Source: a virus. Taken from it: a DNA stretch of 29,527 nucleotides. Made by a program: the position numbers and the translations under genes. Shown one piece after another: positions 16,350-28,682 of this stretch. The stretch is taken from IMG/VR virus record IMGVR_UViG_3300011113_000803, positions 1 through 29,527 of that record, one strand, 5' to 3'. How positions within the stretch are numbered: position 1 is the stretch's first letter; each line of letters starts with the position of its first letter. A model generated the notes under the pieces. That model worked only from the letters and a program-made list of their open reading frames with translations. It was not told the origin of the DNA and searched no databases.

Positions 16350-16357
16350 TATTTATA
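16350..16357 (-). promoter_or_regulatory. T4-type late promoter (perfect octamer)
   Basis: TATAAATA on the minus strand, 22 bases before the ATG of the 736-residue late gene, leaving room for the AAAAGGA ribosome binding site on the leader. Confidence 0.8.
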
Positions 16358-17251: not shown

Positions 17252-17803
17252 ATGATTATTGCAGGCATTGATTATTCTTTAACTAGCCCTAGCATATGCG
17301 TGTTCAACTCTCAAGAACCGTTTTCTTTTTCTCGTTGTTCTTTTTACTTTTTATCTGACGTTAAAAAGAATCAAACTCTGTTTTTAACTAATATTAAAGG
17401 CCAATGCATTACAGATTGGGACAGTGATTTTACCAGATACGAAAATATCTCAGATTGGGCTATGGAATATTTAATTGCGTGTGAACAGGTGGCTATAGAA
17501 GGATATGCTTTCGGAGCTAAAGGTAAGGTGTTTCATATAGCCGAAAACACTGGAGTACTTAAATATCGATTACATCAAGCCAGCATACCTGTAGAAGTAA
17601 TACCACCCAGTGCCATCAAGAAACAAGCCGCAGGCAAAGGTAATGCCAACAAAGAAGAAATGTACAAGGCGTTTGTGAAAGAAACAGGAATACAATTGCA
17701 GATGGTAATTAGTCCCGGAAAAAAAGATATCGGAAACCCAGTTTCCGATATCGTTGATTCTTACTTTATTTGTAAAGCTTTGTATTTAAAACTTAAAGTT
17801 TAG
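17252..17803 (+). CDS. RuvC-like Holliday junction resolvase
   Basis: 183 residues with an RNase H-like fold. Acidic metal-binding residues sit in the expected strands: Asp7 in IIAGIDYSLTSPS, Glu83 in QVAIEGYAFGAKG, and Asp166/Asp169 in NPVSDIVDSYFI. A Lys-rich segment KKQAAGKGNANKEEM (123-137) matches the conserved loop of phage RuvC-family proteins. The enzyme would cut four-way junctions or branched replication intermediates before packaging. The start follows an octamer-like promoter by six bases with no ribosome binding site. Near its 3' end the gene contains a perfect 12-bp inverted repeat (17726-17752). Its stop abuts the end of the convergent minus-strand gene with no spacer. Confidence 0.85.
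   Translation: MIIAGIDYSLTSPSICVFNSQEPFSFSRCSFYFLSDVKKNQTLFLTNIKGQCITDWDSDFTRYENISDWAMEYLIACEQVAIEGYAFGAKGKVFHIAENTGVLKYRLHQASIPVEVIPPSAIKKQAAGKGNANKEEMYKAFVKETGIQLQMVISPGKKDIGNPVSDIVDSYFICKALYLKLKV
17726..17752. repeat. Perfect 12-bp inverted repeat with 3-base loop inside the resolvase gene
   Basis: GATATCGGAAAC (17726-17737), CCA, GTTTCCGATATC (17741-17752). All 12 base pairs match. The stretch encodes residues around KDIGNPVSDIV, which includes a catalytic aspartate. Confidence 0.9.
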
Positions 17804-25307: not shown

Positions 25308-25673
25308 TTACGCTTTATCTTCAGGAGTTATTCTTTCTACAGTAAATCCTTTAAATGTTTTTCTTTTTCCACTTATCACGTCCCACATAGCAGAAGAATT
25401 AATATTTCTATCTCGGCAAAAACCAGTAAAATTATCAGTTATATATTTTATACCTTCTTTATCTGTAAATATAAAAATTGTTCGTTTTTTCTTGGTGTGA
25501 ACAAATTCAAGCTGTTTTTGTACTTTAGAATTCCAGATCCATTCTTTTCCTTGTTTTACGAATTCTCCACCATGTTTTTCTATAAATTTGCTCCTATTGT
25601 GTTCACCTCTAGAATTTTGGTTAAAAAATGCCCATTCACGAGTATTTTTTTTATTTACATTGTTTAGGTTCAT
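25308..25673 (-). CDS. Small protein with homing-endonuclease-type DNA-binding module, no nuclease
   Basis: 121 residues, GGAGAAACG ribosome binding site inside the upstream exonuclease gene, which it overlaps by 23 bases. The C-terminal 45 residues (DNFTGFCRDRNINSSAMWDVISGKR, then KTFKGFTVERI) match the helix-turn-helix/NUMOD-type modules attached to GIY-YIG and HNH homing endonucleases in phages (pattern F-C-x(3)-N-I-N-x-S-x(2)-W/L-x(2)-V-x-x-G-K-R-x(3)-K-G-F). No GIY-YIG or HNH catalytic motif precedes it. The N-terminal part contains NTREWAFFNQNSRGEHNRSKF, unknown. Either a relic of a homing endonuclease or a domesticated DNA-binding protein. Confidence 0.65.
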   Translation of the reverse strand: MNLNNVNKKNTREWAFFNQNSRGEHNRSKFIEKHGGEFVKQGKEWIWNSKVQKQLEFVHTKKKRTIFIFTDKEGIKYITDNFTGFCRDRNINSSAMWDVISGKRKTFKGFTVERITPEDKA

Positions 25674-26304
25674 ATTCGTTTCTCCATTCTTTTATGGCTT
25701 CTGCTAATTCTTTTTTGTAGTTGTTTGGACTTTCTACAAAAGTTTGAACTGTTCCATCATCACAAGTTATAAGGATGGCTATCTGATCAATCTTTTCTCC
25801 AGTTCTTTCTTGCCACATAACAGCATAAGCTGTTGCTTGTAAAAAGTAGTTTTTAATATCTTCTTTTTTCTTTGGTTTGGTGCTGCCTTTAAAATCTATC
25901 ACGCTGGGAATTCCATTAAAATCTGCTATACAATCTACTCTGCCAGCCAAACGGAGTGGTTTACTCCAAAGAAATCCTTCAATAGCTTTAACATTATCAA
26001 TTTTATTGACTTGTTCTTGAAATTGGCAAAATAAATCTAAAGTATATGGATCTTGATTTTTTGCGTATTCTGGATCGTTTTTTATATAATTTTCTACAAG
26101 AGAGTGTAGTTTTGTGCCACGATTTCGTGTACGAACCGCTTCTTTAGGATTATTTTTACGCCATTCCGCAAAAAATTGATTTTTTTTCCATCCTACAACT
26201 GTAGTTACAGAAGGAAATTTACCGTCTGGGGTTTGATAAAAGCCGTCTACTCGCTCTCCTTTAGGAAGATCCACTATTGCATGATTAAAAAGTTTAGAGT
26301 TCAT
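25651..26304 (-). CDS. PD-(D/E)XK exonuclease (MGME1/RecB-like)
   Basis: 217 residues. Family landmarks appear in order: FPSVTTVVGWK (30-40), FFAEWRKNNP, the RNRGTKLHSLVENYI helix with His67, Glu109 in AIEGFLW, Asp124 in LAGRVDCIADF, Asp137 and Lys139 in SVIDFKGSTK, and the conserved Gln156/Tyr160 in FLQATAYAVMW. This is the single-strand exonuclease type found in phages and related to mitochondrial MGME1. It would trim DNA ends or flaps during replication and recombination. Late promoter TATAAATA (26317-26324) lies 12 bases before the ATG, with no Shine-Dalgarno sequence. It overlaps the next gene. Confidence 0.87.
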   Translation of the reverse strand: MNSKLFNHAIVDLPKGERVDGFYQTPDGKFPSVTTVVGWKKNQFFAEWRKNNPKEAVRTRNRGTKLHSLVENYIKNDPEYAKNQDPYTLDLFCQFQEQVNKIDNVKAIEGFLWSKPLRLAGRVDCIADFNGIPSVIDFKGSTKPKKKEDIKNYFLQATAYAVMWQERTGEKIDQIAILITCDDGTVQTFVESPNNYKKELAEAIKEWRNEYEPKQCK

Positions 26305-26602: not shown

Positions 26603-27867
26603 TCTTTCTTATTAATTAACTTTTTGAAATAACCAGTCATATCAGAACCAGAAGAATTAAATATTCGATATTGTTTTTTCCCGTATATTATTCTACGAAT
26701 TCCTCTGATACTTGAAGCAAATACTTCTATTTTTTTACCGTCTTGAATGTACACGACCTTATATTTTTGTTTCTTTAATTTTCGTTGTGTGGATTCTCTG
26801 GGAGAAAGAACATTTTCTTTAATAGAAGTAGTTACCGGAACTTCTACAGTATAATATTTTCCAAAAGAACGAGGATCCATAAAAGATCTTCTAGCTTTTG
26901 CTGAAAGTAATTCCATGGGAGCCAGATTATCTGCTATGTTTGGAGTCGAATAAGTTCGTTCTGGTTCTTCTCTTTCATCTTCATCGTTTTTATTTTTTCT
27001 TCTTTTTTCTTCTTCGTCTTGTTTTAATTTTGTAGACTGGTCTGTTTTTACAGCTGTTTGAGCAGCTGTTTGTGTGGCTGTTTGAGCAGCTGTTTGTGTG
27101 GCTGTTTGAGCAGCTGTTTGTGTGGCTGTTTGAGCAGCTGTTTGAGCAGCTGTTTGTGTGGCTGTTGCTGGAGAAGTAATCGGAACAGTTTGTGTTGTTG
27201 TGGTTATTGAGTTATCTACTGAAGGAGCAATTTTGGATGTTTCGTCTTGTTTAGTTAAATGCGAAATAACTTGTTTTACTAATTTTTGTGTTGCTTCAAT
27301 ATTTACTGCAGATTTTGTTTGTGTTGGAGCGTGAGCAGAAATTCTTGCAGGAATTGGAGTATATGGAGAATGAACAATATCTGTTAATTTACTTGGTGTT
27401 GGTGTTTTTGGTGTGGTTTTTAAGACAACAGGTAAATTCTTTTCAACACCAAGCAAAGCTTCCACAGTTTGTGGTGCTTTTTTTTCTAATTCCAATACTG
27501 CAGTTGGTGCCGATTTCGAAGCAACTTGCATTAATTTTGGAGCAATTTTTGGTGTCAATTGTGGTGCTAATTTTGGAGCAACTTGTCCTAATTTTGATAA
27601 TACGGCACCTATGGATTCTGTTATCATTGAGATATCAGTTTGTCCTATCTCTTCTACAAAAGGCAATTGTTGTATTTTTAAATTTGTATCTGTTTCTTCA
27701 ATTAAAAATTTATTTTGAATAGCCCATTCATTTAAAAAAATATTACCCATGATCCACAATTGATGTGAATCTGGGTAATTTCCGTGAGCAATTTTCCATT
27801 GCTCGCAAGTTTCTTGTAATGTCTTTTTTATTCCAATTTTAAATTTTAATTGAGTTAAATTTTCCAT
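26599..27867 (-). CDS. Late protein with AQTA/TQTA repeat and basic C-terminus
   Basis: 422 residues. The N-terminal 70 are helical with YPDSHQLWIMGNIFLNEWAI (31-50, containing LNE). Residues 95-140 hold Ala/Pro/Lys repeats (VAPKLAPQLTPKIAPKLMQVA). Residues 234-272 are nine to ten tandem copies of a (A/T)QTA tetrapeptide encoded by 12-bp DNA repeats. A Lys/Glu/Asp-rich spacer and a basic C-terminal domain (RKLKKQKYKVVYIQDGKKIEVF ... RRIIYGKKQYRIF) follow. Late promoter TATAAATA ends five bases before the ATG, so the message would begin at or next to the start codon. Layout resembles the 736-residue late protein (Pro/Ala linker plus basic tail). Probably a particle protein; function unknown. 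Confidence 0.65.
   Translation of the reverse strand: MENLTQLKFKIGIKKTLQETCEQWKIAHGNYPDSHQLWIMGNIFLNEWAIQNKFLIEETDTNLKIQQLPFVEEIGQTDISMITESIGAVLSKLGQVAPKLAPQLTPKIAPKLMQVASKSAPTAVLELEKKAPQTVEALLGVEKNLPVVLKTTPKTPTPSKLTDIVHSPYTPIPARISAHAPTQTKSAVNIEATQKLVKQVISHLTKQDETSKIAPSVDNSITTTTQTVPITSPATATQTAAQTAAQTATQTAAQTATQTAAQTATQTAAQTAVKTDQSTKLKQDEEEKRRKNKNDEDEREEPERTYSTPNIADNLAPMELLSAKARRSFMDPRSFGKYYTVEVPVTTSIKENVLSPRESTQRKLKKQKYKVVYIQDGKKIEVFASSIRGIRRIIYGKKQYRIFNSSGSDMTGYFKKLINKKD
27051..27170. repeat. Tandem 12-bp repeat, about ten copies
   Basis: Units of the form (C/T)(A/G)GCTGTTTG(A/T)G follow each other without spacers; the last unit is degenerate. Read on the minus strand each unit encodes a (A/T)QTA tetrapeptide. 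Because the unit is a multiple of three, copy-number change would keep the reading frame of the 422-residue protein. Confidence 0.9.
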
Positions 27868-27885: not shown

Positions 27886-28455
27886 TTACTTTGCAGGCAA
27901 AAGGAACCGAATACCCCAATATCGTTCCATATCATTGTTTCCAAACAGCATCCAATCTTCCACCTTCAAAGGATCATATGTCCTCCAAGTACCATCGTTC
28001 AAATTCACAGTAAAAACGCCACCTTGACTACCCAGTTTACGCCAAACGGCAAGCGAGGTTTGAGTCTGATGAGAATCAGAAATTACCGTATATCCCAGAT
28101 CACTCAACCAACGGTATAGTGCAGGAGCGTATCCTTCACCGATCCAGTCACGGTGAACACGGATACGGTCCATTACCACCACCTTACGACTCCACGGAAA
28201 TGCTTCTTGCGGAATAGGTGCAGCAATCAGACGAGCAACCAGCACCGGATCGCCGTCATTAGAACTGATCAGTACAAGCATACCATTACCTTGCAGAGTT
28301 CGAATATGCTTCAGATCAATTGTCATGCCTTGCAGATCACCAGAACCGTTATGCGTTTCTTGTGAAAACGCAGATTCTGAATTAAATTCCTTTACCTGCT
28401 TGTTGAAAGAGGCGAGATGGTTTGAGTCGATGGTAATTGTTGGAGTAAGAATCAT
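27886..28455 (-). CDS. GNAT-like acetyltransferase-fold protein
   Basis: 189 residues from ATG 28455. An in-frame ATG at 28473 would lie inside the promoter, so the shorter form is preferred. Residues 92-140 have the GNAT layout: a strand VVVMDRIRV, the acetyl-CoA loop RDWIGEGYA (R-x-x-x-G-x-G), helix PALYRWLSDLGY, strand TVISDS and QTQTSLAVWRKLG. The first 80 residues would supply the remaining beta strands. It may acetylate a host or phage protein or small molecule; the target is unknown, and an inactive GNAT fold cannot be excluded. Codons are GC-richer than in the neighbouring late genes. A strong sigma70-type promoter fits early expression, with its expected start exactly at the ATG and no ribosome binding site. 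Confidence 0.75.
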   Translation of the reverse strand: MILTPTITIDSNHLASFNKQVKEFNSESAFSQETHNGSGDLQGMTIDLKHIRTLQGNGMLVLISSNDGDPVLVARLIAAPIPQEAFPWSRKVVVMDRIRVHRDWIGEGYAPALYRWLSDLGYTVISDSHQTQTSLAVWRKLGSQGGVFTVNLNDGTWRTYDPLKVEDWMLFGNNDMERYWGIRFLLPAK

Positions 28456-28461
28456 ACTGTT

Positions 28462-28489
28462 AGTATACACCATACCAAGAAAATGTCAA
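28462..28489 (-). promoter_or_regulatory. Strong sigma70-type promoter for the GNAT-like gene
   Basis: On the minus strand: TTGACA (28489-28484, perfect), 16-base spacer, TATACT (28467-28462), then six bases (AACAGT) and ATG 28455. The predicted transcription start falls on the A of the ATG. Confidence 0.8.
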
Positions 28490-28506
28490 ATGAAAAATTA
28501 AATTTC

Positions 28507-28514
28507 CATAAATA
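28507..28514 (+). promoter_or_regulatory. Late promoter variant facing the candidate RNA
   Basis: CATAAATA on the plus strand (one mismatch to the octamer). By T4 spacing transcription would begin at about 28520, and the next intrinsic terminator is at 28610-28645. Confidence 0.5.
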
Positions 28515-28519
28515 TTAGT

Positions 28520-28645
28520 GATCGGGCTGAGTTGGTTGTAGACTTTGCTCTAGCGAACTACGCCATTCATGCTAAAAAGGGAACTTCGCTACCTTTCGGT
28601 CGTCATAGGGCAGAGGAGAGCCACGAACTCTCTTCTGCTTTTTTT
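28520..28645 (+). ncRNA. Candidate phage small non-coding RNA
   Basis: About 125 bases bounded by a late-type promoter (28507-28514) and a strong intrinsic terminator, with no convincing ORF. The region holds an additional hairpin at 28538-28561: GTAG + TTTGC (28544-28548), loop TCTA, GCGAA (28553-28557) + CTAC, with a two-base bulge. A 5-bp AAAGG/CCTTT pair around 28576-28595 is also possible. The only ATG-started frame (28570) is 26 codons long, lacks a good ribosome binding site and runs through the terminator. The divergent genes on both sides have their own promoters, which leaves the terminator without a coding gene to end. The 5' end is inferred. Confidence 0.5.
28610..28645 (+). terminator. 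Intrinsic terminator on the plus strand
   Basis: GCAGAGGAGAG (28610-28620), loop CCACGAA, CTCTCTTCTGC (28628-28638): an 11-bp stem with one G-T pair, followed by seven T (28639-28645). The last T is also the first base of the next late promoter. Confidence 0.92.
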
Positions 28646-28652
28646 ATAAATA
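28645..28652 (+). promoter_or_regulatory. T4-type late promoter (perfect octamer)
   Basis: TATAAATA on the plus strand directly fused to the terminator T-run, 30 bases before ATG 28683. The leader contains CAAGGA as ribosome binding site. Confidence 0.8.
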
Positions 28653-28682
28653 CAGGTAAGAGTATATAGCAAGGATTTAAAA

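Follow-up and report, generated by a model that had tools for sequence, protein, structure and literature searches.

A small-RNA gene of T4-like phages with antisense complementarity to 23S rRNA around H69-H71

In archaea and eukaryotes, pairing with ribosomal RNA is known for small guide and chaperone RNAs. Phages, for their part, are known to steer host translation through proteins, tRNAs and regulation at the level of mRNA. The base-pairing small RNAs described in phages, which have a discrete promoter and terminator of their own, target mRNAs as far as they are known. T4 also carries two small stable RNAs of unknown function, RNA C (species 1 RNA) and RNA D (species 2 RNA). The locus described here, likewise a predicted small RNA of a T4-type phage, shares with the first of these groups its discrete promoter and terminator and a probable reliance on base pairing, and its best complement is 23S rRNA.

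The stretch of DNA that we analyzed, referred to below as the window, is 29.5 kb long (positions 1 to 29,527 of IMG/VR record IMGVR_UViG_3300011113_000803). It is a fragment of a T4-like phage with a DNA polymerase ~48% identical to that of cyanophage S-RIM8 and 76-85% identical to those of uncultured relatives. A cyanophage origin was considered and set aside, with no psbA-type gene found across 43 phage records. Elsewhere, the window carries a gene for a trypsin-like serine protease (Pfam PF00089; 16393-17181, plus strand), here in a T4-like phage, and a perfect hairpin of 12 bp flanked on either side by T-rich tails (17726-17752) that is apparently a bidirectional terminator. A GCTGTTTGAGCAGCTGTTTGTGTG-like unit is repeated (27050-27170) within a 422-aa gene of the minus strand, a gene that is much longer in some relatives.

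Positions 28507-28652 hold, on the plus strand and between two divergent genes, a late-type promoter, a non-coding unit of ~128 nt, a strong terminator and the next late promoter. The first promoter, CATAAATA (28507-28514), has its expected start at G28520, and the predicted small RNA spans 28520-28647, its 5' end being inferred from the late promoter and its 3' end from the terminator. The intrinsic terminator (28609-28645) consists of a 12-bp stem, in which 28609-28620 pairs with 28628-28639 (-18.5 kcal/mol, z -5.6), a 7-nt loop and a T-run (28639-28645); its stem is the longest among 16 terminator-like sites in the 15.5-kb stretch that was scanned. T28645 belongs both to this T-run and to the late promoter of the downstream gene, TATAAATA (28645-28652), a fusion that is kept in the relatives L156-L158 and L176. 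Exact copies of TATAAATA lie just 5' of gene starts at 16350, 18066, 26317 and 27873 on the minus strand and at 28645 on the plus strand. Because these copies directly precede genes, the octamer looks like a genuine promoter element in the window.

The divergent neighbors each have their own signals: the downstream gene (from 28683, plus strand) the late promoter at 28645, and the upstream gene (27886-28473, minus strand) a sigma-70-like TTGACA-16-TATACT at 28489-28462 on the minus strand. The upstream gene encodes 195 aa that belong to no family, and its near-perfect sigma-70 promoter suggests early expression, opposite to that of the late RNA. The GC content of the unit is 0.48, compared with 0.44 (upstream) and 0.38 in the neighboring genes and 0.37 overall. 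An initial annotation had proposed a late-type promoter and a strong terminator between divergent genes with promoters of their own, a base shared by the T-run and the next late promoter, and a GC content above that of the flanking genes. All of this held, although the upstream gene comes close in GC; the terminator stem, given as 11 bp, is present but measures 12 bp. The fold of the whole unit has a z of -3.2, which shrinks to -1.4 once the terminator is removed, so that the window taken singly would not settle the existence of an RNA gene. The comparative evidence does.

In three contigs with related polymerases, the stretch is 85-89% identical over 196 nt, whereas the adjacent downstream protein is merely 44-56% identical and another nearby protein 44-57%. 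The core was also found, by nucleotide similarity alone, in phages whose polymerases are only 50-55% identical. Two pattern scans of IMG/VR, added to the similarity matches, bring the family to ~45 loci in uncultured T4-like phages, and its covariance model recovers members that had been left out of its building. These loci are spread over at least eight unrelated gene contexts, which disfavors a cis-acting element of one gene. One viral match (L197) reads as a true 23S rRNA and was excluded; the 73 stretches returned by a loose 15-mer scan lie outside the family tally, and the marginal hit to a 177-kb relative (L248, E 0.67) did not resemble the family. A phrog_298 exonuclease gene stands two genes from the RNA in the window (25651-26304, minus strand) and also close 3' of it in the distant L179/L180 lineage (L179:1384-2058, plus strand).

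The ends of the unit are joined by a closing helix, P1. Its 5' strand, GUGAUCG (28518-28524), pairs with CGGUCGU (28597-28603), and its two outermost bases fall just before the expected start; the 3' strand continues into UCAUAG, and the combined segment (28597-28608) aligns with the antisense of 23S ~1914-1925. Within P1 the fold places a P3 hairpin, AAAGG-GAACUUCGCUA-CCUUU (28576-28596), whose loop displays AAYUUCGCUA. At one P1 pair, 22 of the 32 distinct family sequences have G-C and the other 10 have A-U, so that it is broken in none. In a MAFFT alignment in which some P1 strands were misaligned, the covariation score of P1 plus P3 exceeded 500 of 500 shuffles and every slid register; in the same test, the count of pairs changed on both sides did not stand out. 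Many P1 pairs are G-U on the promoter and terminator strand and would be A-C mismatches on the opposite one. Because such pairs work only on the transcribed strand, they settle the strand of the RNA. RNAalifold found no structure in the first MAFFT alignment because the middle is too variable, and P1 was then tested directly. MFE folds alone yielded no single common P2 arm, which we therefore left loosely defined.

A TATAAATA-like promoter precedes the RNA in 20 of the 32 distinct sequences, and in 15 of these 20 exactly 5 nt separate the octamer from the first base of P1. T4 late transcripts start at that distance behind their promoter. A second main architecture lacks the late promoter (L161, L209, L201, L207, L213, L214, L215, L218, L221 and L223); several of these members sit directly behind a GC-rich hairpin resembling the terminator of the upstream gene, so that their transcription would have to rely on another type of promoter or on processing. 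Together, the covariation of P1, its strand-specific G-U pairs, the fixed promoter spacing and the terminators indicate that selection acts on an RNA.

The reverse complement of the conserved core resembles bacterial 23S rRNA. The match covers E. coli ~1914-1942 and 1964-1979, sometimes also ~1993-2000 (standard numbering, that is, the copy used + 6), and thus the H69 loop, H70 and the flanks of H71. Across the family it resolves into up to three boxes that are colinear with the rRNA: GGAGACAG (~1993-2000), AUUACGCYAUUCRUGC (1964-1979) and GGAAYUUCGCUACCUU..GACCGUCAUAG (1914-1942). In the window, box 1 is a remnant, GUAGAC (28538-28543, antisense to ~1993-2000), which is GGAGACAG or GACAG in relatives; box 2 is UACGCCAUUCAUGC (28559-28572, antisense to ~1964-1978), and box 3, GGAACUUCGCUACCUU (28580-28595, antisense to ~1927-1942), lies inside P3. 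In the interval from box 2 to box 3, where 23S rRNA forms hairpin H71, the majority of phage RNAs carry a short linker, and one group (L161, L209, L201, L215 and L214) carries its own hairpin.

Against E. coli 23S rRNA, the phage RNAs score 28-62 in antisense at one segment and 16-30 on the sense strand, compared with a shuffle maximum of 32 (60 shuffles each). The window RNA reaches a modest 31, against 26 for the best of its own shuffles and the overall maximum of 32; L176 scores no higher than its shuffles. For the window RNA alone the match is thus weak, and the case rests on the family. In all 32 sequences the longest Watson-Crick run with 23S rRNA, 11-20 nt in length, begins at 1926/1927, and for 30 of the 32 the best predicted duplex site across the entire 23S rRNA falls in this region; the duplex energies disregard the RNA's own fold. 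The scan patterns were derived from the phage consensus and not from 23S rRNA, but they required part of box 3, so that the invariance of box 3 among scan matches is in part a product of the search. This ascertainment bias does not touch L156-L162, the seven loci retrieved through their nucleotide similarity to the window. Box 2 stays constant although different families pair it with differing upstream strands, and its common changes at two positions retain G-U pairs with 23S rRNA. A partner outside the RNA best explains this behavior.

The complementarity lies on the correct strand, albeit with consistent mismatches to universal 23S bases: opposite A1938 in 21 and C1967 in 27 of the 32 sequences, and opposite A1918 and 1925-1926 in nearly all. 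Those at A1938 and C1967 could reflect the 23S rRNA of the unknown hosts, tolerance or loss of a pairing role. Aliarcobacter 23S rRNA carries the matching base at 1967. When the variant (C1967U) was sought as a clue to the host, it was absent from the 299 Pseudomonadota genomes sampled, a search that had no positive control. Antisense scores vary between the 23S rRNAs of different phyla, and the hosts remain unassigned.

These data establish a real small-RNA gene, as the initial annotation had proposed: the unit is conserved, its promoter spacing is fixed, P1 changes are compensatory and reading frames are lost. Its transcription is inferred, as there are no transcript data. The claim that some 125 bases hold no credible ORF also held, the sole long open frame (55 codons) having no ATG and being broken by indels in relatives. 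The single internal hairpin was an under-reading, given P1, the P2 arm and P3. Coding-type conservation and an absence of conserved structure had been named as refuting observations; both were checked in relatives and neither was met. The roles suggested at the time, namely mRNA regulation, a decoy or packaging, find no support, and the evidence points instead to base pairing with host 23S rRNA.

We therefore propose the following model, of which expression, binding and effect are all inferred. The phage would make a small structured RNA late in infection, its 5' end folded onto its 3' end through P1 to enclose the P2 arm and the P3 hairpin, with the terminator ending the transcript. Boxes 2 and 3, joined by box 1 in several relatives, would pair in trans with host 23S rRNA around H69-H71 at times when the rRNA strands are open, namely in 50S subunits that are free or still being assembled. 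The bound 50S subunits would then be kept out of 70S ribosomes, a consequence that is the most inferred part of the model and whose alternative is the shielding of an rRNA segment. Published work bears on the state of the target: the segment is open to cutting by MazF-mt6 in free 50S subunits and is not cut in 70S ribosomes (PMC5408214), H68-H71 are flexible in pre-50S particles (PMC11260487), and PNA directed against the neighboring H69 stops E. coli (PMC7038079). We lean, without great confidence, toward a structured antisense RNA, expressed late, whose binding partner is the host 23S rRNA of free or immature 50S subunits. The direction of its effect is the weakest step, shielding of H70 being the main variant. 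Whether T4-like phages across lineages possess a natural antisense RNA that pairs with H69-H71 of free or assembling 50S subunits and controls the host ribosome pool late in infection is a bolder reading, for and against which we see the balance as nearly equal. Among the points against the antisense model, some of the bases that would pair with the rRNA are also claimed by P1 and P2, and late expression is an odd time for blocking the assembly of new ribosomes.

Of the alternatives, one that remains possible is that the RNA arose from a 23S gene fragment copied in antisense and that its function now lies in its own folding, perhaps in binding a protein or as a stability RNA, so that the resemblance to 23S rRNA is mere ancestry. 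The mismatches are consistent and not random, P1 overrides complementarity at 1918 and 1925-1926, and the P3 loop could serve as a protein site, all of which fits this view. Against it, the sequence of box 2 persists through changes of its partners within the RNA, and the 23S complement is best kept exactly where 23S rRNA is universal, with linkers and arms drifting. The shielding variant, in which the RNA pairs with 23S rRNA to cover the H70 segment (UUCCU, 1939-1943), so that ribosomes are spared attack by MazF-type toxins or by other RNases of the host, seems unlikely to us. Box 3 does cover the MazF-mt3 and MazF-mt6 cleavage site of free 50S subunits (PMC5408214), and late phage genes need functional ribosomes; yet binding of an antisense RNA at H69-H71 should by itself keep the subunits from joining, and a connection to toxins is not known for these hosts.

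It is also conceivable, but very unlikely, that the stretch matters as DNA, either as a copy of the rRNA-gene target of a homing endonuclease or as a relic of recombination. The 1923-1940 region of 23S genes is known as an intron and homing site, with the I-CeuI site in this part of 23S. A covarying P1 with strand-specific G-U pairs, the fixed promoter spacing and the terminators speak against such a role. A short coding gene or a leader of the downstream gene is all but excluded. A stop-free frame of 55 codons does run through the window (28502-28669), but it lacks an ATG, and indels shift every frame in relatives; as for a leader, the downstream gene varies between lineages, and the one in the window is served by a separate promoter located past the terminator. 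Antisense pairing with 23S rRNA remains our preferred reading.

Searches for described counterparts returned none within their scope. Rfam gave no family above the gathering threshold, ARAGORN found no tRNA or tmRNA, and the family covariance model detected no such RNA in T4, S-RIM8, HTVC008M or P-SSM2. Nucleotide searches of named phages returned nothing meaningful with the window and nothing with L222; those with L159 and L209 matched essentially rRNA genes. A scan of bacterial genomes in GTDB, which allowed short linkers only and did not cover the long-linker architecture, found no copy, its single match (L224) being a masked true 23S gene. The open-access literature yielded no phage RNA that is antisense to rRNA, subscription papers and preprints not being covered. 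As far as we could check (Rfam, named phages, the short-linker form in GTDB and open-access literature), a phage RNA that pairs with rRNA, a pairing that is itself inferred here, would be of a new kind.

If the model is correct, an RNA directed at ribosomal RNA would give phages a different handle on host translation, and its target would be a naturally chosen weak spot in 23S rRNA beside the sites of antisense PNAs and MazF toxins. The near universality of this target among bacteria means that laboratory E. coli can serve to test the idea, with no need to grow the phage itself. Among known systems, box C/D and H/ACA guide RNAs and rRNA-chaperone snoRNAs such as U3, U8 and U14, of archaea and eukaryotes, are likewise small, structured and paired with conserved rRNA in immature ribosomes. 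They are cellular and work through conserved boxes and partner proteins, whereas the RNA described here is phage-encoded and directed at bacterial rRNA, and no such boxes or proteins were noticed, Rfam, whose families include such guides, having returned no match. The PNA oligomers on helix 69 (PMC7038079) are also antisense to a neighboring part of 23S rRNA and inhibit growth of E. coli, but are synthetic, unstructured and short. MazF-mt3 and MazF-mt6 (PMC5408214) act on the same H70 segment in free 50S subunits as protein ribonucleases, not as RNA. RNA C and RNA D of T4 sit in a tRNA cluster, and the family model has no match in the T4 genome. Finally, where the known base-pairing small RNAs of phages are aimed at messengers, the best complement of this one is the 23S rRNA of the ribosome.
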